A DNA stretch of 23,656 nt from a virus. A program made the position numbers and the translations under genes. The notes under the pieces were generated by a model, which saw only the letters and a program-made list of their open reading frames with translations, ran no database searches and was not told the origin of the DNA. Positions 487 through 15,414 of this stretch are shown here, in pieces; positions within the stretch are counted from its first letter, which is position 1, and every line of letters begins with the position of its first letter. The stretch lies in the IMG/VR virus record IMGVR_UViG_3300031834_000049, positions 1 through 23,656 of that record. One strand, 5' to 3'.

Positions 487-876
487 ATGGCATTCGAGAT
501 TCCTGGTATGCAGTTGTCCATGGTCGCGGGTGAAGACCTTCGGACAAAGCGATTCTACTTCACGAAGATTCACACGGACGGCACCCTTCTTCTCTGCTCG
601 TCAGTGACGGAACCGATTTTCGGCATCTTGCAGAACACCCCCAACACTGGGGAGATGGCCACAGTGATGGTGTTCGGGGTGTCCAAGATCGTGGGAAGCG
701 CCGACCTGGCCAAGGGCGATCCGGTGGGCACGACCACTGCCGGAAAGGCCGCGACGTACGCGCACGGCACGGACACCACGAAGTATATCGTGGGCACGGT
801 GATGCTCGACAACTCGGTAGATGGTGGCGTGGCAACCATCGCGTTCAACTGCCTCGGCGCTGGCCGTGCGGCCTAA
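487..876 (+). CDS. DUF2190-like capsid cement / head decoration protein
   Basis: A 129-residue protein with a good ribosome binding site (AAGGAG at 473-478, 8 bases before the ATG). The pattern of a small beta-rich domain containing a 'KGDPVGTTTAGKA' segment near residues 78-90, followed by 'KYIVGTVMLDNSVDGGVATIAF', is typical of DUF2190 proteins. These are small capsid cement proteins that bind the outside of the phage shell and stabilise it. The gene sits immediately upstream of the major capsid protein, the usual place for a cement gene. Family assignment is from remembered sequence pattern and gene order, not from a search. Confidence 0.7.
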   Translation: MAFEIPGMQLSMVAGEDLRTKRFYFTKIHTDGTLLLCSSVTEPIFGILQNTPNTGEMATVMVFGVSKIVGSADLAKGDPVGTTTAGKAATYAHGTDTTKYIVGTVMLDNSVDGGVATIAFNCLGAGRAA

Positions 877-1021: not shown

Positions 1022-1993
1022 ATGAGCGTTCTCGTACGAAAGGGCCAGCCGTCGCAGGGTGAAGTTCACACTGACGCCATGCTGGACAACATCAGCATCG
1101 CGTACATTCAGTCCCAGGATGCGTACCTGTTTCCGAAGGTGTTCCCCATCGTTCCGGTTGGGAAGCAGTCGGACAAGTACTACACGTTCACGAAGAACGA
1201 TTGGTTCCGTGACGAGGCGCAGAAGCGAGCAGATTCGACGGAGTCGGCCGGCAGCGGGTACGGTCTGTCGTCGGGGAACTACTACTGTGACGTGTGGGCT
1301 TTCCACAAGGATGTCGGGTCGCAGGCGCGTGCCAATGCGGACGCGCAGATTGACCTGGCGCGTGGCGCGGTGCAGTTCGTGACTCAGCGCCTGTTGCTTC
1401 GGCAGGAGTTGCAGTGGGTGACGGATTATTTCTCGGCCGGTTCCGGGTGGGGCACGACCGCTACACCCGCCAACCTGTGGAGCGACTACACGGCATCGGA
1501 TCCGATGGAGGACATTGAAACGGCAAAGGAAGCCATTCTGTCCGTGACCGGGTTCCTGCCGAATACGCTGGTCCTAGGTTACCAGGTCATGCGGAAGCTG
1601 AAGAATCACCCGGACTTCCGTGATCGGATCAAGTACACGTCGGCGGAGAACATCACACCGGCATTGCTTGGTTCGTTGCTGGAGATTCCGACCGTGCTGG
1701 TGGCCAAGTCGATCAAGGCGACCAACCTGGAAGGGGAAACGGCTGGGTACGCGTTCGCCCACGGCAAGCACGCATGGCTGGGGTACGTGAACCCGACACC
1801 GGGGCTGATGATGCCTTCGGCGGGGTACACCTTCGCCTGGACCGGGGTCAGCAGCACTCCGTCCTCGACCATCGGAATCGACTCGTTCGACATGCGTTCG
1901 ATCAAGTCCACCCGGTACGAGGGTGAAGTGGCGTTCGACAACAAGGTGGTGTCCGCCGATCTCGGATACTTCTTCAACGGGGCGGTGGCCTAG
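1022..1993 (+). CDS. Major capsid protein
   Basis: A 323-residue protein, a normal length for an HK97-fold major capsid protein that has no separate delta domain. It starts at an ATG 9 bases after AGGAG (1008-1012). The N-terminal 'DNISIAYIQSQDAYLFPKVFPIVPV' type segment, a 'W...RDEAQKRADS' segment, a long helix-like stretch (ARGAVQFVTQRLLLRQELQW, about residues 114-133) and the C-terminal beta-rich 'GYAFAHGKHAWLGYV' region match large phage coat proteins of this class. The product builds the icosahedral shell. Context supports the call: scaffold-like and cement genes precede it, a terminator-like hairpin follows it, and neck genes come next. The exact family was not checked by search. Confidence 0.8.
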   Translation: MSVLVRKGQPSQGEVHTDAMLDNISIAYIQSQDAYLFPKVFPIVPVGKQSDKYYTFTKNDWFRDEAQKRADSTESAGSGYGLSSGNYYCDVWAFHKDVGSQARANADAQIDLARGAVQFVTQRLLLRQELQWVTDYFSAGSGWGTTATPANLWSDYTASDPMEDIETAKEAILSVTGFLPNTLVLGYQVMRKLKNHPDFRDRIKYTSAENITPALLGSLLEIPTVLVAKSIKATNLEGETAGYAFAHGKHAWLGYVNPTPGLMMPSAGYTFAWTGVSSTPSSTIGIDSFDMRSIKSTRYEGEVAFDNKVVSADLGYFFNGAVA

Positions 1994-3252: not shown

Positions 3253-3465
3253 ATGTTTTGTGTGATTCAGAAAGCATTCAACGGTCCGGGGAACCGCCAG
3301 TACACGGTGGGTGAATTGGTGGATGCGTCGGAATGGCGGCTCAGCGATAAACTGGTTGAGGGGCGGTACATGCGCCCCGCCACGGAACGAGAAGTCGCGT
3401 ACGCTGAAGAAGTTGACGTACCGGATGTGCCGGTACGGAAGACGGCAAAGGGGAAGAAACGGTGA
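3253..3465 (+). CDS. Small hypothetical head-region protein
   Basis: A 70-residue protein with a start most likely at ATG 3253, 5 bases after GAGG (3244-3247); an in-frame GTG at 3247 is less well placed. The N-terminal half resembles a small SH3-like or 'YTVGELVDASEW' domain and the C-terminus is a basic Lys/Arg tail (KTAKGKKR). Small proteins of this type often sit between the capsid genes and the first neck gene. The stop codon overlaps the next start (GTGA at 3462), implying translational coupling. No function can be assigned. Confidence 0.5.
   Translation: MFCVIQKAFNGPGNRQYTVGELVDASEWRLSDKLVEGRYMRPATEREVAYAEEVDVPDVPVRKTAKGKKR
3417..3437 (+). repeat. 8-bp perfect inverted repeat near the 3' end of the small gene
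   Basis: CGTACCGG (3417-3424) and CCGGTACG (3430-3437) flank a 5-base loop. It lies 25 bases before the connector start codon, which itself precedes a second, longer inverted repeat. Confidence 0.35.
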
Positions 3466-3872
3466 GCTGGTCGTATGATTCGCTTCTAGCGACTAGTCGT
3501 GATCGACTCCGCCTGTTGATCGGAGACACCATTGCCTCCGATCAACAGTTCTCTGACGAAGAACTTGATTGGTTGCTGACCTCAAATGGTAATGGATTGT
3601 ACCAGACCGCTGCGGCATCGTGTCGAGCATTAGCTGCTCGGTATAGCCGATATGCGGATAAGTGGGTCGGTGATCTCAAGATTCTCGCGTCCCAGAAATC
3701 TAGAAGTTACCTGGCGATGGCAGACTCGTTCGACACCCAGGCAGGGGTCCAACCCTGGTCCGTTCCTTCTGCAGGAGGCGTGCGTATCGCTGAAAAGGAA
3801 GAAGCGGCAGCGGACACGTCCCTAGTCCAGCCGGAGTTCGTGCGGGGCATGATGACGAACACGGGGTCGTAG
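3462..3872 (+). CDS. gp6-like head-tail connector protein
   Basis: A 136-residue protein starting at a GTG that overlaps the previous stop (GTGA). The N-terminal pattern 'RDRLRLLIGDT' (residues 13-23) followed by 'FSDEELDWLL' (30-39), then a run of helices with 'AAASCRALAARYSRYAD', is the signature layout of HK97 gp6/SPP1 gp15-type connectors. These proteins form a ring under the portal and receive the closure protein. The acidic and polar C-terminus is a likely flexible tail. The next gene is the closure protein, matching the usual neck order. A 13-bp inverted repeat lies inside the 5' part of the gene. Confidence 0.75.
   Translation: MSWSYDSLLATSRDRLRLLIGDTIASDQQFSDEELDWLLTSNGNGLYQTAAASCRALAARYSRYADKWVGDLKILASQKSRSYLAMADSFDTQAGVQPWSVPSAGGVRIAEKEEAAADTSLVQPEFVRGMMTNTGS
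3513..3548 (+). repeat. Perfect 13-bp inverted repeat inside the connector gene
   Basis: CTGTTGATCGGAG (3513-3525) is repeated inverted at 3536-3548 with a 10-base loop. It covers codons about 18-29 of the connector. It is followed by TTCTCT, a weak T-rich tail. It could act as an attenuator, an RNA-processing structure or simply reflect codon choice; the first is inference. Confidence 0.55.
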
Positions 3873-5529: not shown

Positions 5530-5753
5530 AACGCTACCTAGTTGTGGGGTCGTCAACTATCGCCATTGAAGGTTCTCATGCCCCTGGTGATACGTTTGAA
5601 GCGGATATGTCCGCAACATTGGAGGAGTTCCTGACCAGGATTGGGGCCATCGAAGAAGTTACCCCAGCATCGGTCGATGCGAATCACGGGGCCGCTGCCC
5701 CAATTACTCACCCTGGACTTGATTCCGGGGATGACGTGAAGGAGGAGGAGTAA
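5526..5753 (+). CDS. Small acidic hypothetical protein
   Basis: A 75-residue protein with its start at GTG 5526, in a GTGA overlap with the previous gene and after an excellent AAGGAGGTG (5512-5520). The first half has strand-like character (RYLVVGSSTIAIEGSHAPGD), and the C-terminus is acidic (DSGDDVKEEE). Similar short proteins between terminator and tail tube genes are common but uncharacterised. The purine-rich end of the gene doubles as the ribosome binding site (AAGGAGGAGGAG, 5739-5750) for the tail tube gene. Confidence 0.5.
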   Translation: MKRYLVVGSSTIAIEGSHAPGDTFEADMSATLEEFLTRIGAIEEVTPASVDANHGAAAPITHPGLDSGDDVKEEE

Positions 5754-6481
5754 TGGCCACGTTGGTATTGACGGATGCCAAAATCCTGATGGGCGCGTAC
5801 AACCTCAGCGGGTATCATTCGTCCATTGAAGTCGGTTACGAAGCCGAAATGCTGGACAACACAGTCTTCGGCACATCTGGGACTCGTTCTTCAATGGCCG
5901 GATTGAAGACGTTCACCATCTCAGGTAACATGTTCTGGGAATCGGCCGTGGACGATGCGCTATTCCAGAGAATCGGGAACCCAGTAGCCGATGTCATGAG
6001 TGTTGCGCCCGTGGGCAATGCTGAGGGAGATCGTTCCTACTGCGTCAAAGCGGTGCAGGCATCGTACAGCCCCGTCAGCGGGGAGGTGGGTGCCATTATC
6101 CGCACGTCACTGGAAGGCCGAGCAGCTGGTACGCCCCTGGTCCGGGGGCAAGTGATGGCGACGGGAAACAAGACAACGTCAGGTGCCGGTTCTGGGGGAC
6201 TCATCACGGCAGTCAGTGCGACGCAGCGGATGTACAGCGCCTTGCACATCACGGCCATTGCGGGAACAGCGGTGCCCACCTTCACGGGCATCATCCAGTC
6301 AGATGATGCCGGGGGGTTCGGAACCCCTGTTACTCGGCTCTCGCATCCGGCCGCGACCACGATTGGCGCGAATTGGCAGGAAGCGGCTGGCCCCCAGACC
6401 GACTCGTACTGGCGGGCGAGCTGGACCATCTCGGGTACGAACCCGGTGTTCACAGTGTTCTGGACCTTCGGGATTCTCTAA
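5753..6481 (+). CDS. Tail tube-type protein with extra C-terminal domain (paralogue 1)
   Basis: A 242-residue protein. Residues 1-130 form a core with 'VGYEAEMLDNTVFGTSGTRSSMAGLKTFTISG' followed at about residue 108 by 'SYSPVSGEVGAI', both of which recur in the next gene. This layout matches siphovirus major tail/tube proteins, whose beta-barrels stack as rings around the tape measure. Residues about 130-242 form an additional beta-rich domain ('LHITAIAGTAVPTFTGIIQSDD' onward) absent from the paralogue. Decorating domains on tube proteins usually face outward and are often Ig-like or lectin-like; that role here is inference. Which paralogue is the main tube subunit cannot be read from the sequence. 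Confidence 0.65.
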   Translation: MATLVLTDAKILMGAYNLSGYHSSIEVGYEAEMLDNTVFGTSGTRSSMAGLKTFTISGNMFWESAVDDALFQRIGNPVADVMSVAPVGNAEGDRSYCVKAVQASYSPVSGEVGAIIRTSLEGRAAGTPLVRGQVMATGNKTTSGAGSGGLITAVSATQRMYSALHITAIAGTAVPTFTGIIQSDDAGGFGTPVTRLSHPAATTIGANWQEAAGPQTDSYWRASWTISGTNPVFTVFWTFGIL

Positions 6482-6502: not shown

Positions 6503-6919
6503 ATGGCAACCATGGTGTACACCGATGCGTTCGTCAGCATCAACGCAGTGGATTTGAGCGACCACGTAAAGTCAGTGACCCTGACGTACGAAGCCGAGAT
6601 CCTGGATGATACGGTGATGGGCACAAGCGGAACACGGTCTTCCAAGCCGGGGTTGAAGAACTGGACCCTGGAGGTGAATTTCCTCCAGGACTACGCTGCG
6701 GCCAACGTCGATGCTACGCTATTCCCATTGGTGGGTGCGGCAGCGTTCACCTGCATTGTGCGTGCGAACAAGACAGCTGGCGTCGGTGCCACGAACCCGA
6801 ACTTCTCGGGGTTGGCGGTGCTGGCGTCGTACCCGCCCTTGACCGGTGAAGTGGGTGCATTGGGCACGGCCACAGCATCCTTCCGGTCTGCGGGCGCGTT
6901 GTCGCGGTTGGTGGCGTAA
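6503..6919 (+). CDS. Tail tube-type protein, core domain only (paralogue 2)
   Basis: A 138-residue protein preceded by a strong TAGGAGGAGA (6488-6497). It shares with the preceding protein 'YEAE-LD-TV-GTSGTRSS--GLK' (residues about 29-53) and 'YPPLTGEVGAL' near residue 110, so the two are tandem paralogues. It lacks the second domain. Its minimal size suits a bare tube subunit, and it is the last gene before the chaperone pair, the normal place of the major tail protein. It is followed by a hairpin-rich intergenic region. Alternative: this is the minor copy and paralogue 1 is the tube. Confidence 0.65.
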   Translation: MATMVYTDAFVSINAVDLSDHVKSVTLTYEAEILDDTVMGTSGTRSSKPGLKNWTLEVNFLQDYAAANVDATLFPLVGAAAFTCIVRANKTAGVGATNPNFSGLAVLASYPPLTGEVGALGTATASFRSAGALSRLVA

Positions 6920-7098
6920 CGATACCGCCACGGGACGGGGGCTTAGCGCCCCTGTAGGCGTCGATCACGGGTGGGGGGTATATCCCGGTATCCCCCGGCC
7001 CATAAAACGGCCGTACGGCCACTGCAGTGACCCCGCATGGGGTGGAGTCATTGCCCCCCGTACGGATCCGTGGTACCCATCCGAAGGAGGGTGTCGTG
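6920..7098 (+). other. Structured intergenic region before the tail chaperone genes
   Basis: This 179-bp gap is one of the longest in the window. It contains an 8-bp stem (6935-6942 with 6948-6955, one G-T pair, 5-base loop), a 12-base palindrome GGCCGTACGGCC (7009-7020) and a CCCC/GGGG stem near 7031-7042. None has a T-run, so a classical terminator is not clear; the first hairpin may stabilise or attenuate the tail tube message. The gap ends with AAGGAGGG (7084-7091) for the next gene. No sigma-type promoter was convincing. Confidence 0.45.
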
Positions 7099-7530
7099 AT
7101 GTTAGTTGAGAAAACCCCGTTCACGTTGTTTGAGTCTTTCGAACGCGACCGTAACGGCATCATCAAACGCCGTGCGCTGCGTTTCGACCTTAATGCTCTC
7201 GCGGACTTCGAACAGGAAGTCGGGATGGGCATTGCCCAGCTGATGCAGACCAAAGCCATCTTTGCGACCACGCGTGCGCTACTGTGGGCAGGGTTGCGCC
7301 ATGAGGACCGTGGACTGACTGTGGACCGCATGGGTGACTTGATTGGAACCTACATCAAGCAGGGCGGCGACCTCACCCAAGCACTGCAGGCCGCATTCAA
7401 AGCTGCTGTGGACCAAGGCGCGTTGGGGTCTCCTGACAAGGAAGATACAAGTGGGAGTACCCCCCAGGGAAACGCCCCGACACCAGTCCCGGATCCGGTA
7501 AAGGACGAGGCCGTAAATACCGAAAGTTAG
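7099..7530 (+). CDS. Tail assembly chaperone, short form (gpG-like)
   Basis: A 143-residue protein. ATG 7099 is chosen because it follows AAGGAGGG at 7 bases; an in-frame ATG at 7027 has no ribosome binding site. The core 'LRFDLNALADFEQEVGMGIAQLM' then 'ALLWAGLRHEDRGLTVDRMGDLI' and a helical end is the typical G-type tail chaperone domain, which binds the tape measure before tube polymerisation. The last 40 residues are a Pro/Gly/Thr-rich linker, in which the frameshift site lies. It stands immediately upstream of the tape measure, as in lambda. Translation that does not shift ends at TAG 7528. Confidence 0.8.
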   Translation: MLVEKTPFTLFESFERDRNGIIKRRALRFDLNALADFEQEVGMGIAQLMQTKAIFATTRALLWAGLRHEDRGLTVDRMGDLIGTYIKQGGDLTQALQAAFKAAVDQGALGSPDKEDTSGSTPQGNAPTPVPDPVKDEAVNTES

Positions 7531-7799
7531 ATTTTCGGTGGTCGGCATGGATTACGGAGAATGAACCCTTTGCATTCGGTCCGTTAGAGCTGAAACCACG
7601 GGAGTTTAGAAGTATGACTCCAGCCGAGTACGGGGCACTGTACCGAGGGTGGGTGTGGCGTACTCGTTCAGCTGAAGACCGAGACTGTGTGTGGGTGTGC
7701 ATGTTGGTCAATCACATGGGCACGGTCAGAGATCCTCTCATTCCGGTACGAGTGTTGGGCCGACCGATGGTGGGGATGCCGAAGGCGGGTGACGACTAA
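7099..7799 (+). CDS. Tail assembly chaperone, -1 frameshift fusion (gpGT-like)
   Basis: If ribosomes slip back one base on GGGAAAC (7467-7473), translation continues from 7473 in the -1 frame to TAA 7797-7799, giving about 233 residues. The -1 frame is open from 7437, just after a TGA at 7434. It encodes a T-type domain: 'DFRWSAWITENEPFAFGPLEL' followed by 'KPREFRSMTPAEYGALYRGWVWR', a pattern (Pro-Phe-x-Phe ... Met-Thr-Pro-x-Glu) widely seen in T extensions of siphovirus chaperones. No ribosome binding site stands before an internal start in this frame, and key T-domain residues lie upstream of ATG 7614, so the region is best read as an extension. The TAA overlaps the tape measure ATG. Confidence 0.85.
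7467..7473 (+). promoter_or_regulatory. Programmed -1 ribosomal frameshift slippery site
   Basis: G GGA AAC in the reading frame of the short chaperone is a canonical X-XXY-YYZ heptamer, and it is the only one I found in the permitted window 7437-7530 where both frames are open. It is the same kind of site (GGGAAAx) as in lambda G/T. I saw no obvious strong stem just downstream apart from the small palindrome CCGGATCCGG at 7489-7498. Confidence 0.85.
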
Positions 7800-10700
7800 T
7801 GGGGATGGGCACCAGTGTCGGATCGATTTTCGTCAGTATTGGCGCTGACACTTCGGGGTTAGTGTCAGGATTCTCGCGAGCCGAACGAGAAATTGAGCGG
7901 TTCGGCTCGCGAGTCTTTTTCCTCGGCTCTCGTATGACGGCCGGGGTCACGCTGCCCATTATCGGGGCAGCGATGGCGATAGGAAAGTTCGGGGCAGAAT
8001 TCGATAAGGCCATGACCGAGTCATTGGCGATCATGTCCGGGGTCACGCCCAAAATCCGAAAGGACATGGAAGAAGTCGCGAGAACAATATCCGAGACGTC
8101 GAAGTACTCCGCTAAACAGGCCGCAGAAGGATTCTATCACTTGGCATCGGCCGGGTACACCGCAGCGGAGTCGATGAAGTTGTTGCCGGTTACGACCAAG
8201 TTTGCACAGGCCGGGGTCATGGACCTGGCCAAAGCAACAGAGTACTTATCCGGCGCGCAACAGTCCTTGGGTATGCGGATGGAAGACCCCATCGAGAACG
8301 CCAAGGAAATGGCTCGTATTTCGGATGTGTTGACCGAAGCGAATAACCGTGCGCTAGGCACCATTGAAGACTTCGCCCAGGCCATCAACAATAAGGCCGG
8401 TGCGCAGCTACGCATTTATAATAAGACCGTGGAGGAGGGGGTTGCGGCATTGATGGCGTTGGCGTCCCAGAACGTCAAGGGACGTTTAGCCGGTCAGCAG
8501 TTATACATGGTCCTACGCGATTTGGCTAGGTTCTCGTTAGCGAATACGGCGGCGTGGGAAAAGTACAATGTCGCGGTCTATGACGCGTCGGGAAACATGC
8601 GGAACATGTCCAGTATCATCGTCGATCTTGATAAGGCCATGTCAGGCATGTCGGTGCTCGAAATCACGAACATGTTTAAGGAGATGGGATTCACTGACCG
8701 AACCCGTGCAGCGATCCAGTACTTCCGGGGCATGGGCGAGGGAATAAAGGGATACGAGAATGCGTTGCTCAGCGCAGGGGGCGCGACAGACCGCGTTGCC
8801 AAGAATCAGATGCAGGCATTCTCTAACCAGTTACAAGTGGTGTGGAATAAGATAAAGAATGTCGCCATTGAACTGTTCTCTTCCTTTGCCCCAACAATCC
8901 TAAACACGGTGATCCCCGCAGTAGAACGGATGATTGAATGGTTCTCTGAATTTGCAAGGGGAATCAGTCAATGGTCCGAAACTACCAAAGTTTTTGTCCT
9001 AGCCTTCCTAGCCTTAGCTGCGGCCATGGGCCCAGTGATTATGATCCTGGGATCGGGTATTTTATTCAGCAGTGCGATTCTCGGGGGGTTTACGTCTGTT
9101 GGTGAGGGAGTCCGTGCCATAACCCGCGCCGTGGTCATTGGTACTCAGGCGTGGCGTGATTATGCGCTGGCCCAGGGGGCCGTCAGTTTATCTCAGTCTT
9201 TGGGATGGGCCGTGAACGCATTTGGCGCGGCAGGGGCCAAGGCCACGGGCCCAGCAACCCGTAGATTAGGCCCAGGAGCAGGGTCGATGGTCAGTGCCGG
9301 GTTGCTTGCATATCAGGCGCGGGAATTGGCAAGTAGGCGTGCGTCAGTTATTGCGGCAGCTGCAGCTCAAGCTTCGCGACTATCCTCGTTGCCTGGGATG
9401 ACGCCAGCCATGGCGGAAGTGGGCGGTCAGGGATTGATGCTTGCTGCGACCCAACAGGCCGCGATTATGACAGCCATGTCCACGAAAAGTAAATTGTGGA
9501 TGGCAGAAATGAGCAGGTTGAGGGCTTTAGGAGTCACAAATACCAGTCTCATGGCTACTGAAGCAGTAAAGTCAGAAGGAATTTTAGGCGGAATTGTGGC
9601 ACGGACTATGTCCGTGTTTACAAAATTGGGAGTCACGTTATCGGCTCTGAAACTTGGGGGATGGGTAACAGCGACGTTGGTGACTCTCAGGGGTTTCTCG
9701 GACAGCTGGGAACAAGTGTTTAATGTCATTGTTACCGCGACCATGGGACCGGTAGCGATTCTGTTCCAGGCATTCAAGAAACTGTGGTCCGCCATTCTTC
9801 CGGAATTCCCAAACCTTCGGAAATTTATTGGGGAGTCTGTCGGGTCATGGGATGATTGGAAGCAAGCGATACTTGACTGGGGATCGGCGTCCTGGTACGC
9901 TATCCATAGTATAGTTACAGAGATAGAGAATCTGGGGTTTGCTATCGGCGCGTTGGACAAAACGAATAAAATCCCTTTGAAGACTCTGGTTCAGGAGGGA
10001 AAGAGGCAGGGGATGTCTATTCCCCAAGCCCTGAGTCTGTTCACGTACGCGTACGGCGCACGGGATGAGGAAGTAGCGGATTCGTGGATTGCCGCTCGTA
10101 AAGCACACGATAGACAAGTAAAAGATCTACGGGGGTCGGGTAACCAGCCCCTTTCAGGACTTTTGGGCACGGTATCTCAGTTCGCTACGCCAGTCAAAGG
10201 GCCAGACTTCAAAAAAGAATACGATAGGCTCATGTACCAGTTGAGGGACGCCACCCCGAAGGAGCGGCAAGAGGCGTTCGATGACCTCATCAAGAAATAC
10301 CAAGACCAGATGCGGGAAGGTGCATACCCTGAGGGACCGCCGAAACCTTCCAAGCCCGAGCGCATTGACCGTAACCTACAGTCCCAACAACGGTATTACG
10401 ACACGGTCAGGGGCGATGATCAAGATTTGGAGAACATGGCTAAGGGGTTCGTGGCCGCAGCGTTAGGGTTCTTTATTGATTCCCCTGACGCGACATCCAT
10501 CCCCCTTGCATGGGCCGAGCGGATGTGGGCGGACTATAAGAAATACAAGGACACACTTGCACCCGAGGAAATAACCGGCACGGTCAAAGTTCTGGATGAG
10601 TTGACTCGGTCGTTGTGGGAACAAGAAGCAATCTTGCGGCAGATGGCCGAGTGGGATAATAAGGGGTACTGGAAATCCTGGTCCGAGGAACTTCCCGGTG

Positions 10701-13396
10701 TCGATAAGAAGGTACGGGCGTTAGTCGCATCGTTTGAGGAACTGGGGCTGAACACCCCAGAACAGGTGGGACTCCTCCCCATTGAATTCTTTAAGGATAA
10801 CGAGGAAGCGATATCGGAACTGGCCGCAACATGGGGTACTTTCCCTGAGTCCATTAGAGAAGCAAATCCGGTCATTGATGCGCTAATAGCTCGATTCGGT
10901 AATCTGACGAAGGCCGGTACGTTGGGGACTGATAAGACGAAAGCGTACTTCAACACACTTCATGAGGGACTTGTCCAGATGGGGGCGGATGCGGCAGCTA
11001 AACTGTCCGATGCCGCATCTACGCTAGACACATTCCTGGAGGGTCAGTTCAGTTCTAGGCAAATGAAGAACTTGAAGCAGACCTGGGATAAGGCGTTAGA
11101 GGACATTAACAAAACTTACCTGAAGAAAATGGCCGAGATCGCGGCCATTCCCATTGGTCCTGACCAGGCCGTACAACAACTAGCGGGGATAAAACTTCTT
11201 GACTCTTGGCGCGATACCATGGAGGAAGTAGTCAAGATAACTCGTAATACGTTTAAGGGGAATTGGGCCGAAGCTGCAGGTTTCTCTAAGTCCCAGCAAA
11301 AAGGAATTGCTGGTATGACGGATGCGGATTTCAATAGGCTTAAGGAAGTCATAGACGCATGGGGTAAGCTTTACGAGGTAGTTGGTAAGGTCGGTACCGC
11401 ACTAAGTAAGTTCGGAACCTTGTTAGGGATGATAGGGTTTGAGGGATTTGGAGCTTCCATCCTTGCAGCCGCTGCATCTTTCGACGCCATGCGGACAGCG
11501 GCTGACACGTTCGTCAAGGCATTCCCAAAGGGCGGTCCTGCGGATTACCTGACCGGGATAGCGGCTGCCATTGATATGACCACGGCCTTTGTAGCGGCCA
11601 TGCAACTTGCAACACGCGAACAACGCACACTAGCTGGGGCTGCATCAGGGGCCATGGCGGGGGCGGCTATCGGGGCTATGACAGGGGCCAAAGGAGGGGG
11701 GGTCTGGGGCGCAATCATTGGTGCAATCGCTGGGGTGGTTGTTGGAGCCGTGAAGGGAGACCCTGCGTGGAAACGGATTAAAGACGCCGTTAGATTACAG
11801 TTTGGTACATCCATCAGTGAGGGTGTTGCGCAGGCAATCGCTGAGAGCAAAACAAAACTCGCGATGACTATACGAGAAGCGGACATCTTCAATTTAGACT
11901 TAATCATTGGGGAAGCTGGAGGAGTCACGGCCACAACCATAGGTAAATGGTCGCAAAAACTATCCGAAGCCTTTACCGTTTATGTGGAAGGACTGAAGAA
12001 ATTCCAGGACGCATCGGCAGCACAGACCCTTCGTCGGGGAACTTCTCCCACCACGGGAAGTGCAGAGAGTCTCCTTGAGATGGGGCGTGCGGCAGATACC
12101 CTGTTGGACACGTTTGACCGTGTATTCCCCTTGATTGCGGACGCGGTAGTGAAAAGCGGTAAGATTGCCGGCGCTGAATTTCTTACTCTCATAAAGTTGA
12201 TGAGGGCCACAGGACTTGAATCACAGGCTTTGTCTGACTTTATATCTGGTCAACTGACACGAGCCATGACCGCATGGAGTAAGGTAGCAGCACCGCTGGC
12301 CGCATGGTCTACATCATTTGCTACAGCGCGGCAAGACCTCATCGACTTCAATAAAGAGATGGAAGGGTCCGGGAAGTTCGACCCCAAAACGGGCAAATAC
12401 CTAGACCTGGGGTCTGAAGACCAGAAACGTCTGGATGAGATTCAGAAGAACCTGAAAAAGATAGAGGAAGGTGGGAAGGGAGCGGCAGTAGAAGTAGAAC
12501 GGCTGGGGCGCATCCTGATGTCGGCGTTCAACGGGGCGGTCGCATCCGGCCTGTCATGGATGGAGGCCATGGACCTGATGGGTCCGCAGTTGGATACGCT
12601 GATTCAGCTGTATAAGGACTTGGGGATTACCTCTAACAATGCCGCGTTGAATGCGCTGATGCACTATCAGAATCTAGCGACGCAGAATGCGGCACTGGTG
12701 GAGGGGGTACGTTCGCTGAATGAACTGACGCTGGCGCTGTCGAATCTGGGTGCGCTGGATGCTGAAACATTGGCTGACCTGGAGGCGCAGGGCCTTCAGA
12801 TGTATGAGCAGATGATCATCGCCGGATTTACCCAACGTGAAACCCTAATGGCCATGGAACCCTGGTTGAAGACCATCTGGGACGCGCACAAGAAACTGGG
12901 CATTCCCATTGATGAAAACACCCAGAAACTCATTGACCAGGCGAGAGAAATGGGATTGTTGGAAGATGAGAAGACGGTGTTAAGTGTGTTGGAAGCAGGG
13001 TTCAAAGCCCTTGTTACGGCTGTTAAAGATTTGACAAACGCGTTGATGGGAATTCCTTCCGCCGTCAACACCCGAATCAATATCCATACAGTCTACTCAT
13101 CTTCGGGGGGGCAGGAGACTCCGGATCCGGAGAATGATGACCACGATGAAGGTAATGGTATGCCTAATCTCGATATCAATGCGGCATACAGGGGAAGTTA
13201 CTGGTCGGCACGATCCGTATCGTTCTTAAACAGTGAAAAGGGACCAACACCAAGTAATGTATATAATAGAGGAAGTGGTATCAGTATGGATACATCTTCC
13301 ATTGTGAGAGAATTGCAGGCCTTGCGTGCGGCGCAGTCAAATCAAGATGTCTTGATTCGTCGTGCGGTACGGGATGCTGTACTACTGGCCAGGTAA
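7799..13396 (+). CDS. Tail tape measure protein
   Basis: At 1865 residues this is by far the longest gene and the expected tape measure, which sets tail length and fills the tube lumen. The N-terminal region (about residues 10-250: 'GFSRAEREIERFGSRVFFLGSRMTAGVTLPI', then 'FDKAMTESLAIMSGV', 'AAEGFYHLASAGYTAAES') matches TP901-type tape measures. Hydrophobic segments lie at about residues 396-430 and a glycine-zipper-like stretch at about 1278-1317; such segments are thought to enter the host membrane on DNA ejection. The rest is mostly helical, and the C-terminus is a short coiled-coil-like end (ELQALRAAQ). Assuming about 1.5 angstrom per residue, as for other siphoviruses, the tail would be near 0.28 micrometre. 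No peptidase or lysozyme motif was recognised. The start overlaps the chaperone stop (TAATG). Confidence 0.9.
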   Translation: MGMGTSVGSIFVSIGADTSGLVSGFSRAEREIERFGSRVFFLGSRMTAGVTLPIIGAAMAIGKFGAEFDKAMTESLAIMSGVTPKIRKDMEEVARTISETSKYSAKQAAEGFYHLASAGYTAAESMKLLPVTTKFAQAGVMDLAKATEYLSGAQQSLGMRMEDPIENAKEMARISDVLTEANNRALGTIEDFAQAINNKAGAQLRIYNKTVEEGVAALMALASQNVKGRLAGQQLYMVLRDLARFSLANTAAWEKYNVAVYDASGNMRNMSSIIVDLDKAMSGMSVLEITNMFKEMGFTDRTRAAIQYFRGMGEGIKGYENALLSAGGATDRVAKNQMQAFSNQLQVVWNKIKNVAIELFSSFAPTILNTVIPAVERMIEWFSEFARGISQWSETTKVFVLAFLALAAAMGPVIMILGSGILFSSAILGGFTSVGEGVRAITRAVVIGTQAWRDYALAQGAVSLSQSLGWAVNAFGAAGAKATGPATRRLGPGAGSMVSAGLLAYQARELASRRASVIAAAAAQASRLSSLPGMTPAMAEVGGQGLMLAATQQAAIMTAMSTKSKLWMAEMSRLRALGVTNTSLMATEAVKSEGILGGIVARTMSVFTKLGVTLSALKLGGWVTATLVTLRGFSDSWEQVFNVIVTATMGPVAILFQAFKKLWSAILPEFPNLRKFIGESVGSWDDWKQAILDWGSASWYAIHSIVTEIENLGFAIGALDKTNKIPLKTLVQEGKRQGMSIPQALSLFTYAYGARDEEVADSWIAARKAHDRQVKDLRGSGNQPLSGLLGTVSQFATPVKGPDFKKEYDRLMYQLRDATPKERQEAFDDLIKKYQDQMREGAYPEGPPKPSKPERIDRNLQSQQRYYDTVRGDDQDLENMAKGFVAAALGFFIDSPDATSIPLAWAERMWADYKKYKDTLAPEEITGTVKVLDELTRSLWEQEAILRQMAEWDNKGYWKSWSEELPGVDKKVRALVASFEELGLNTPEQVGLLPIEFFKDNEEAISELAATWGTFPESIREANPVIDALIARFGNLTKAGTLGTDKTKAYFNTLHEGLVQMGADAAAKLSDAASTLDTFLEGQFSSRQMKNLKQTWDKALEDINKTYLKKMAEIAAIPIGPDQAVQQLAGIKLLDSWRDTMEEVVKITRNTFKGNWAEAAGFSKSQQKGIAGMTDADFNRLKEVIDAWGKLYEVVGKVGTALSKFGTLLGMIGFEGFGASILAAAASFDAMRTAADTFVKAFPKGGPADYLTGIAAAIDMTTAFVAAMQLATREQRTLAGAASGAMAGAAIGAMTGAKGGGVWGAIIGAIAGVVVGAVKGDPAWKRIKDAVRLQFGTSISEGVAQAIAESKTKLAMTIREADIFNLDLIIGEAGGVTATTIGKWSQKLSEAFTVYVEGLKKFQDASAAQTLRRGTSPTTGSAESLLEMGRAADTLLDTFDRVFPLIADAVVKSGKIAGAEFLTLIKLMRATGLESQALSDFISGQLTRAMTAWSKVAAPLAAWSTSFATARQDLIDFNKEMEGSGKFDPKTGKYLDLGSEDQKRLDEIQKNLKKIEEGGKGAAVEVERLGRILMSAFNGAVASGLSWMEAMDLMGPQLDTLIQLYKDLGITSNNAALNALMHYQNLATQNAALVEGVRSLNELTLALSNLGALDAETLADLEAQGLQMYEQMIIAGFTQRETLMAMEPWLKTIWDAHKKLGIPIDENTQKLIDQAREMGLLEDEKTVLSVLEAGFKALVTAVKDLTNALMGIPSAVNTRINIHTVYSSSGGQETPDPENDDHDEGNGMPNLDINAAYRGSYWSARSVSFLNSEKGPTPSNVYNRGSGISMDTSSIVRELQALRAAQSNQDVLIRRAVRDAVLLAR
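7873..7920 (+). terminator. Intrinsic-terminator-like hairpin inside the tape measure gene
   Basis: A perfect 14-bp inverted repeat (CTCGCGAGCCGAAC at 7873-7886; inverse at 7900-7913) with a 13-base loop is followed at once by TCTTTTT (7914-7920). That is the textbook form of a Rho-independent terminator on the + strand. It lies within codons about 25-41 of an intact reading frame, only 74 bases after the start codon. Its position makes attenuation of the tape measure and distal tail genes, or read-through by an anti-terminated polymerase, possible; both are inference. Confidence 0.6.
11128..11149 (+). repeat. 8-bp inverted repeat in the tape measure gene
   Basis: AATGGCCG (11128-11135) and CGGCCATT (11142-11149) flank a 6-base loop. 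It has no T-run and may have no function; noted because two longer inverted repeats occur elsewhere in coding sequence. Confidence 0.25.
13119..13132. repeat. 14-base perfect palindrome near the end of the tape measure gene
   Basis: CTCCGGATCCGGAG reads the same on both strands. It lies in the acidic, low-complexity part of the protein (residues about 1774-1778). A protein-binding site or chance are both possible. Confidence 0.3.
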
Positions 13397-13398
13397 GT

Positions 13399-15414
13399 AT
13401 GGGATACTTGACTGTTTCTGTCGAGGCTAATCTTGCCACAACGGTATGGACCGATCTGACGGTCGATACGCGGCAGGAACCAGGCATTACGCTGGACTGG
13501 GGCATGGACGGCGGCCGGCCTGAGGATAACTGTGCTCGGCCAGGTACCTGCAATCTGACGCTGGATAACGAGACACGTACCAATGGATTGCGAGGTCGTT
13601 ACTCTCCCGGCCACACGAATGCGCTCGCGGGGTTCGACCTCAACACGCCGCTGCGCGTCATTCTACAGGATGGCCCGAACCGCTGCGTTAACGGCGGCAT
13701 GGAGACGGGCACAGCGGCAGAGTGGACGACGTACGACGGGGCAGGCGAGGTGACGGCGTTCGGCCAAACGGCCGCCACATCGCATTCCGGCACGATGAGC
13801 TGCAAGATCGAATGGACGGGCGGGAACGATGCGAAAGGCATCCGTCCCGTCGCAGGCGTCGGCAACCTGCCGTTCTCTCCCTACACCACGTACGTCGTGT
13901 CGTGCTGGGCGAGGATGTTGACGGCGTCTACTCCCTTCTTGTATCTCGGGTGGGTGGGGACGGCTCCTGCTACCAGCGTCTTGATCGGGGCGACGAACCT
14001 CTCAACCGTGTGGCAGCGATTCGCGTGGGTGATTACGTGGGGCGCGACGGTCAACGCCACCGTCGGAGACTTCGTCTTCTGGCTGAACAATACTGGCACG
14101 CACACGATCTACTTTGACGACATTCAAGTCGAGCGTGCCGCCTCCATCACGGATTGGCACGACTCGGCGCACCGGATCTGCGGCCCATATCGTATCGCCG
14201 AAATTACCCCAACTCCCGGGCAGTACCTTGAACGGCAGGTAGGGGTGCTGGCGACGGACTGGTTGGAAGAAGCGGCTGAAGCCCCTATTCAGACGTCCGC
14301 GATGATTCGCGTGGATGCGCCCACGCTCATTGGTACGCTTATCGCGAGCATGGACCGTCAGCCCACCGCGACGGAATTGGATGCCGGGATTGGTATCTTC
14401 GAGTACCCGCTGCGCGACATGACGGGACCGAACAATCGTGTCCTCGCCGCTTTCAAGGAGACCGCGCAGTCTGATGGTGGGTTCGTATATCTGACGAGCG
14501 ACGGGACGTTGCGCTATGAGTCGCGCAACTCGCGTGCTGGGAATACGACGGACGATTTCACGCTGTCCGACACCATGCACGGGTTGGAGGCGCAGCGGTC
14601 TCGCGATGCGCTGGTCAATTTCTTCAACCTCACGACGCACCCGCCGGTACTGTCGTCCGGGTACGTCGTGCTCTGCGAGATCTTGACCCCGTGGCTGATT
14701 CAGGGTGGGCAGACGGTCACGCTCACGCTGGACTATCGCGACCCGGACACGGGCGAGCCGTGCGGGGGAGTGCTGACGCAACCGCTCAGCGTGGCCCTGG
14801 GCGATTGGACCGCCAACTCGCAGGAGAACGGGTTTGGCACCGATTACACCGGGAACTCGAACTTGGTCATCGGGTATGGGTCGTCTACTGGCGTACCAGG
14901 CACGTCGAATGTGATCTTTCAAGTCCACAGCAATTTCGCGGTGGGCACTGACGTGTACATCACGACGCTGCGACAACGTGGTATTGCGGTGCTGGATCGC
15001 GATCCGGTCACGGTGGCCGCAGTCAACGCGACGAGCATCACGGCGTATGGGCGCAAGACGGTTGACGTCGATCTCCCGTACCAGAGCGATTCCAACTTCG
15101 CCACGGGACTCGCGGAGTATTGGAAATCTATCTATTCCGATGCGGCGATGCGGGCGTCTGCGGTGTTCGTGCGTGCCGCTGCCGACGCCACCCCGCTTGC
15201 GATGGTCTTGAGCGCAGACATCGGGACACGGATACGGCTGACGGAAACCATGACGGGAATCGGCGAATCGTACTGGGTTCAGGGAGTGGCGCTCACAGTC
15301 GTGGCCGGGATGCTCGCAGATATGACACTCCGACTAGCTCCGGCGGTTGATGACTTGTTTTTTGTGCTCGACGCCTCAGAGCTAGACAACCTGACGCGGA
15401 AGTTGGGATATTGA
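13399..15414 (+). CDS. Distal tail / tail hub minor tail protein with carbohydrate-binding-like insert
   Basis: A 671-residue protein starting 2 bases after the tape measure stop, where siphoviruses encode the distal tail or hub protein. The N-terminus (residues 1-93) has the usual minor tail pattern: 'GGRPEDNCARPGTCNLTLDNETR' then 'RGRYSPGHTNALAG'. Residues about 94-250 look like a CBM4/9-type jelly roll: it opens with 'NRCVNGGMETG', has 'TSHSGTMSCKIEW' and 'YVVSCWARM' in the middle, and ends with 'IYFDDIQVERA'. Such modules bind sugars. The remainder returns to the hub-like fold, ending in 'GIGESYWVQGVALTVVAGMLADMTLRL'. A role in baseplate assembly plus glycan contact with the host is inferred. 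Codon use here is richer in GCG, ACG and CGC than in the tape measure gene. Confidence 0.7.
   Translation: MGYLTVSVEANLATTVWTDLTVDTRQEPGITLDWGMDGGRPEDNCARPGTCNLTLDNETRTNGLRGRYSPGHTNALAGFDLNTPLRVILQDGPNRCVNGGMETGTAAEWTTYDGAGEVTAFGQTAATSHSGTMSCKIEWTGGNDAKGIRPVAGVGNLPFSPYTTYVVSCWARMLTASTPFLYLGWVGTAPATSVLIGATNLSTVWQRFAWVITWGATVNATVGDFVFWLNNTGTHTIYFDDIQVERAASITDWHDSAHRICGPYRIAEITPTPGQYLERQVGVLATDWLEEAAEAPIQTSAMIRVDAPTLIGTLIASMDRQPTATELDAGIGIFEYPLRDMTGPNNRVLAAFKETAQSDGGFVYLTSDGTLRYESRNSRAGNTTDDFTLSDTMHGLEAQRSRDALVNFFNLTTHPPVLSSGYVVLCEILTPWLIQGGQTVTLTLDYRDPDTGEPCGGVLTQPLSVALGDWTANSQENGFGTDYTGNSNLVIGYGSSTGVPGTSNVIFQVHSNFAVGTDVYITTLRQRGIAVLDRDPVTVAAVNATSITAYGRKTVDVDLPYQSDSNFATGLAEYWKSIYSDAAMRASAVFVRAAADATPLAMVLSADIGTRIRLTETMTGIGESYWVQGVALTVVAGMLADMTLRLAPAVDDLFFVLDASELDNLTRKLGY

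Follow-up and report, generated by a model that had tools for sequence, protein, structure and literature searches.

Near the start of the tape measure protein (TMP) gene of a tailed phage, a perfect 14-bp hairpin is followed at once by a U-rich tail, and we class this element as terminator-like. Comparison with a distantly related virus leaves selection on the hairpin well supported and suggests that the structure is probably a selected signal, not a by-product of the protein code. We lean towards the view that this selected coding hairpin acts as a leaky terminator or attenuator between the high-copy and the low-copy late genes.

The stretch of DNA that we analysed (the window) is IMG/VR virus record IMGVR_UViG_3300031834_000049, 23.7 kb in length. 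It carries the late structural genes of a tailed phage, nearly all of them on the + strand (Table 1). The ORF that houses the hairpin runs for 1865 codons (1865 aa) with internal stops absent, and its identity as TMP comes from matches to the PHROGs tail length tape measure proteins (best E 1.2e-58) and to Pfam PhageMin_Tail (E 1.7e-28). The overlap between its start codon and the stop of the preceding small ORF suggests translational coupling from the small ORF into TMP, and a stop-start overlap of this kind, TAATG or TGATG, is also present in the relatives L014, L015, L016, L009 and L034. The ORF 3′ of TMP (13399-15414) has a marginal match, exactly at the cut-off, to the carbohydrate-binding domain CBM_4_9, which would plausibly fit a tail-tip protein. 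Among annotated sequences, the major capsid protein comes nearest to those of Arthrobacter phages (about 53% identity), a likeness that gives a weak hint of an actinobacterial host. No DNA-level relatives were found among annotated phages, and the bacterial genomes searched gave a sole protein match, at 25% identity.

Table 1. Late-operon genes, the post-tail-tube gap and the parts of the TMP hairpin in the window.
Feature	Position	Strand	Remarks
Scaffold gene	487-876		
Major capsid protein gene	1022-1993		
Major tail protein gene	5753-6481		
Major tail protein paralogue (tail-tube paralogue) gene	6503-6919		
Gap after tail-tube paralogue gene	6920-7026	+	GC-rich hairpins, U tract absent
Tail protein gene	7027-7530		
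Small ORF directly 5′ of TMP	7614-7799	+	TAA stop overlaps TMP start as TAATG
Tape measure protein (TMP) gene	7799-13396	+	ORF call; houses hairpin near 5′ end, codons 25-39
Hairpin 5′ arm CTCGCGAGCCGAAC	7873-7886	+	Codes F-S-R-A-E-R
Hairpin loop GAGAAATTGAGCG, 13 nt	7887-7899	+	Differs in L034
Hairpin 3′ arm GTTCGGCTCGCGAG	7900-7913	+	Codes R-F-G-S-R-V
U-rich tail TCTTTTTCC	7914-7922	+	Codes conserved V/L-F-F

The initial annotation had placed a perfect 14-bp stem with its tail 74 nt inside an intact TMP gene, and these coordinates are exact: the two arms pair at all 14 positions, and the hairpin spans 74-114 nt 3′ of the TMP ATG. No other perfect short-loop inverted repeat in the window is as long. 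Folded alone, the hairpin RNA reaches -27.4 kcal/mol (z -5.0 versus dinucleotide shuffles), and it dominates both the local fold and the fold centroid. A U tract abuts the 3′ side of the stem, reading UCUUUUUCC in the window and UUUUUUUC in the outgroup virus L034; the window tail is interrupted (U C UUUUU), whereas that of L034 is U7. The loops of intrinsic terminators typically measure about 3-8 nt, a range that is typical and not absolute, and the loop exceeds it both in the window (13 nt) and in L034 (15 nt, reduced to 9 nt if two inner pairs are counted). Using our own implementation of the d'Aubenton-Carafa formula, with approximate thresholds, we obtained a marginal terminator score of 2.3 at the hairpin, which is the sole positive + strand site in the 23.7 kb. 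To call the hairpin as good a terminator as those found between genes was thus an overstatement, given its 13-nt loop, its interrupted tail and a score of 2.3 versus mostly 20-65 for the terminators that relatives carry in the gap after the tail-tube paralogue. A simple terminator scan with loops of at most 8 nt catches the site only partly and was uninformative for the window (16 matches versus 16.1 in shuffles), and an Rfam search of the window at gathering thresholds gave zero matches.

Since the site was picked for being unusual, its first-stage rarity has to be discounted, and the weight of the argument rests on L034, which was found later by an amino-acid motif search blind to the hairpin. 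This virus is represented by three contigs (L031, L034 and L037); its TMP N-terminus is 62% aa-identical to that of the window, and a tree places it outside the group formed by the window, L014, L015, L016, L017 and L009. At the homologous codons, L034 carries GTCGCGAGCCGAA, a loop unlike that of the window, and TTCGGCTCGCGAC followed by TTTTTTTC. Twelve of the 14 bases of the 5′ arm are the same as in the window, and the outer pair is swapped on both sides, from C-G to G-C. The terminator score at this site is 27.8, the sole positive coding-strand site on the 10.3-kb contig, and it was matched by 0/600 synonymous versions. Given the protein and codon use, a 13-bp stem in that register has a probability of 1.1e-4.

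The likeness between the two viruses is concentrated at the hairpin. The 11 codons of the arms and U tract are all identical; elsewhere, positions with the same amino acid also share the codon in 39.9% of cases. Codons 24-41 mark the best 13-codon stretch of the window/L034 alignment. Simple multiplication puts the 11-codon identity at about 4e-5, and such multiplied probabilities are guides and inexact because the lineages are not fully independent. The rare codons CGA and GGC, identical in both viruses, are confined to the arms and tail. The loop codons differ, and the likeness is therefore limited to the paired and U-tract bases. When 2.9 million viral contigs were searched for exact copies of the arm pair, 6 contigs matched, all at the TMP site and all from the window or L034 lineage, so that the exact arms are common to these two lineages only. 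On these comparisons, a shared protein or chance would explain the retention of the arms in L034 poorly.

A first scan had yielded eleven TMP relatives, and the hairpin has a mixed record among near relatives. The hairpin is unchanged in L002, L003 and L013 (=L004), which are, however, almost the same virus as the window. On one 27.3-kb contig, IMGVR_UViG_3300037193_002415 (L010/L011), the TMP region occurs twice, in opposite orientations and at both ends, which looks like an assembly palindrome. The sister L014 (=L005, 97% aa identity) differs synonymously at 6 of the 15 stem-loop codons, an above-average number; its three stem changes leave G-U pairs and all 14 pairs are kept, with the U run broken to UCUUCUUUC. 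L015, L016, L017 and L009 (86-89% aa identity) retain IERFGSRVFF with only 5-9 of the 14 Watson-Crick pairs in the window register; Ser-26 is Gln in all four, and the other amino acids of the site are kept. Other, register-shifted hairpins occupy the site in L016 and L017, the one in L016 ending in UUUUCUUCC and scoring 2.0, with no other positive site on its 11.6 kb, and L009 is without a notable hairpin there. The terminator score at the site is positive in none of L014, L015, L017 and L009. The hairpin is thus dispensable, because L015, L017 and L009 lack a positive score and L009 has no notable hairpin at all.

When excess folding is taken across L015, L016, L017 and L009 only, the site is unexceptional (rank 52 of 1192 windows), and folding strength across near relatives is weak evidence of function (Fisher p about 0.009 with L034 and 0.05 without it, uncorrected). 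Pairing over seven rows is weak as well, with the covariation score matched by 15/500 shuffles and the paired cells by 51/500, because four relatives lost the register. Just 3′ of the site, L015 has a strong lineage-specific TMP fold of its own (8121-8180, -39.6 kcal/mol in 60 nt, z -5.7), which is weaker in the window (z -3.9). The initial annotation had held that relatives keeping the amino acids while losing the pairing would speak against a signal. L015, L016, L017 and L009 are such relatives, and we first accepted their loss of pairing as a decisive refutation; this verdict was overturned by L034, which keeps the arms, a compensated pair and U7.

In the simplest history, the hairpin would be ancestral, kept on the branches to the window and to L034, and either decayed or replaced in L015, L016, L017 and L009, in which Ser-26 changed to Gln. 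If the window and L034 lineages had instead gained it independently, this would argue for selection at least equally strongly. Short recombination between these two lineages is unlikely because the inter-arm loop and the flanks differ between them, which a transferred block would not be expected to leave. We also rejected, from the sequences, a single template-switch event that perfected the repeat: one copy event would be insufficient because the differences from L014 that perfect the repeat affect both arms, at pair 7 on the left side and at pair 8 on the right.

We also surveyed terminators and long hairpins elsewhere in the late operon. A scan of 81 TMP loci (455 kb) gave 28 positive coding-strand terminator scores, among them those at the TMP hairpin site in the window clade, L034 and L016. 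In L072, L078, L082, L086, L087, L096 and L119, terminators end about 770-860 nt before TMP codon 1. These upstream terminators are mostly strong, with long U tracts, and by position and gene order (the order being seen for L020/L082) they sit in the gap after the tail-tube paralogue. Hairpins without a U tract, like those in this gap of the window, are also found there in L014-L017, L009 and L034. Terminators with a U tract, in several distant relatives, and U-less hairpins, conserved in the window clade, share this place. Across 543 kb of related sequence there are just 9 distinct perfect stems of at least 12 bp. Two of these belong to the TMP hairpins and two to versions of a hairpin in the gene at 3462, while another four, in L078, L084, L086 and L087, are as far from TMP as the post-tail-tube gap. 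Long hairpins therefore mark a few fixed places in the late operon.

The hairpin in the gene at 3462-3872 (phrog_1732, unknown function) is a second coding hairpin of the window. Located at 3513-3548, 51 nt into the gene, it has 13 perfect bp, a loop of 10 and no good U tract. It shows a full compensatory change (A-U to G-C) in L014/L038, a 12-bp version in L017/L041 and a register-shifted one in L015/L039, comes out near the top when windows are ranked by excess folding across relatives, and is missing in relatives at 57% identity or less. Among near relatives, it is better conserved than the TMP hairpin. The gap after the major capsid gene holds an 11-bp perfect hairpin with a weak U tract (2014-2043); its arms are kept in L014, and in L015 the corresponding place is taken by a hairpin with another sequence, a pattern that would be expected of a terminator or 3′-end hairpin after the capsid gene.

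How might the TMP hairpin act? The initial annotation had suggested that a terminator or attenuator restricts the distal tail genes or is held open by translating ribosomes. The anatomy of the element favours this proposal and its operon position fits; termination, ribosome gating, antitermination and a gene-dosage benefit at the hairpin are steps that we infer. One long late operon would hold high-copy capsid and tail-tube genes together with low-copy TMP and tail-tip genes, and the hairpin would stand at the border. Ribosomes probably reach TMP by coupling, because the TMP start overlaps the upstream stop. A ribosome close behind RNA polymerase over the TMP start would prevent the hairpin from forming; behind a polymerase with a lagging ribosome, the hairpin would form and the polymerase would stop after about 120 nt of TMP. 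A leaky stop of this sort would thin the expression of the rare tail proteins. We offer a more specific version tentatively, considering it possible rather than probable: in this phage group, the stop may have moved from the post-tail-tube gap into the TMP coding sequence, with readthrough only if TMP is translated and tail-tip mRNA proportional to TMP translation.

In phage late operons, terminators follow high-copy structural genes, as T7 T-phi does after the capsid gene. As in that arrangement, a partial stop between high-copy and low-copy virion genes is proposed here, and the terminators of relatives lie in the post-tail-tube gap. Unlike in that arrangement, the sole positive score of both the window and L034 lies inside TMP and not in the gap.

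The closest competitor to a leaky terminator is a selected mRNA hairpin with another job, such as slowing ribosomes near the beginning of a very long gene, shielding or defining an mRNA processing end or providing stability, whose U tail comes merely from the conserved Phe-Phe codons. It would account for the better retention of the stem than of the U run in L014, for the second coding hairpin (3513-3548), which is kept with a compensatory change yet has no good U tract, and for the U-less hairpins of the gap at 6920-7026 in the window's clade. However, L034 joins its stem to a U7 tail that goes beyond its synonymous versions (0/600), the codons TTT TTC are common to the window and L034, and distant relatives as a rule have U-tract terminators about 770 nt upstream; we therefore consider a different job for the hairpin rather unlikely.

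Coincidence without function seems to us less probable again. Here, the codons for S-R-A-E-R ... R-F-G-S-R-V-F-F would simply happen to be nearly reverse complements with a U-rich end. The protein sequence does predispose the site to pairing: the codons for S-R-A-E-R and R-F-G-S-R-V are near reverse-complementary words, and synonymous sampling with the protein fixed already gives a mean of 7.2/14 pairs in the hairpin register. Terminator scores above 0 occur in 1-7% of synonymous versions of the hairpin stretch, so the single positive-score site is not compelling alone, and the pairing is missing in most near relatives. Against this, a perfect 14-bp stem in the hairpin register has a probability of 7.5e-6 with the protein fixed, the L034 stem is improbable in the same sense, and the rare codons are shared by two lineages only in the arms and tail while the loops differ. 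Synonymous codon permutation across the whole TMP gene gave a stem of at least 14 bp in 0/1500 cases and of at least 13 bp in 4/1500, in agreement with an earlier chance estimate of about one in a thousand.

A DNA-level element, either a cruciform or a dyad to which a phage or host protein binds, is very unlikely. In its favour, the arms but not the spacer are strictly kept between the window and L034, and the arm contains the palindrome CTCGCGAG. Against it, copies of the arm in the window with at most 3 mismatches show no excess (5 found versus 3.9 expected, two being the arms themselves), the 2.9 million viral contigs have the arm pair nowhere but at the TMP site, and the G-U pairs of L014 break DNA symmetry while preserving RNA pairing.

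The TMP hairpin shares with intrinsic (Rho-independent) terminators a GC-rich stem, a U-rich tail directly 3′ of it, location on the coding strand and positive scores (2.3 in the window, 27.8 in L034). It differs from them in lying inside an ORF, 74 nt from the start, and not after a gene, in its 13-nt loop, and in having a stem and tail that encode conserved residues. Premature 3′ ends inside ORFs and 5′ UTRs of E. coli have been mapped by RNA sequencing (Adams et al. 2021, PMC7815308), and some are predicted intrinsic terminators, such as aceK int, with a score of 5.9, and the ispU 5′ UTR site, with a 6-bp stem and eight U. The ORF-internal E. coli sites resemble the TMP hairpin in being putative premature termination within an ORF; they were mapped in a host, whereas the TMP hairpin is known from sequence alone, in a phage structural gene, and has a much longer stem. 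Ribosomes can block the formation of intrinsic terminator hairpins in E. coli coding sequence (Elgamal et al. 2016, PMC5021804). The TMP element likewise is a terminator-like hairpin in translated sequence whose formation a trailing ribosome could prevent; unlike in those ribosome-gated terminators, no stalling motif, leader peptide or antiterminator hairpin was identified at TMP, short of a systematic search. Searches of the open-access literature turned up no intragenic terminator described where a TMP gene begins, which is a weak negative.

The very different copy numbers of phage virion proteins made from one long late operon are mostly ascribed to translation. If the TMP hairpin is indeed a leaky terminator, protein code and transcription signal would lie on the same bases in the first TMP codons, with retention at the codon level across 38% protein divergence, and the hairpin would provide a compact, testable element for dosage control of the TMP and tail-tip genes.
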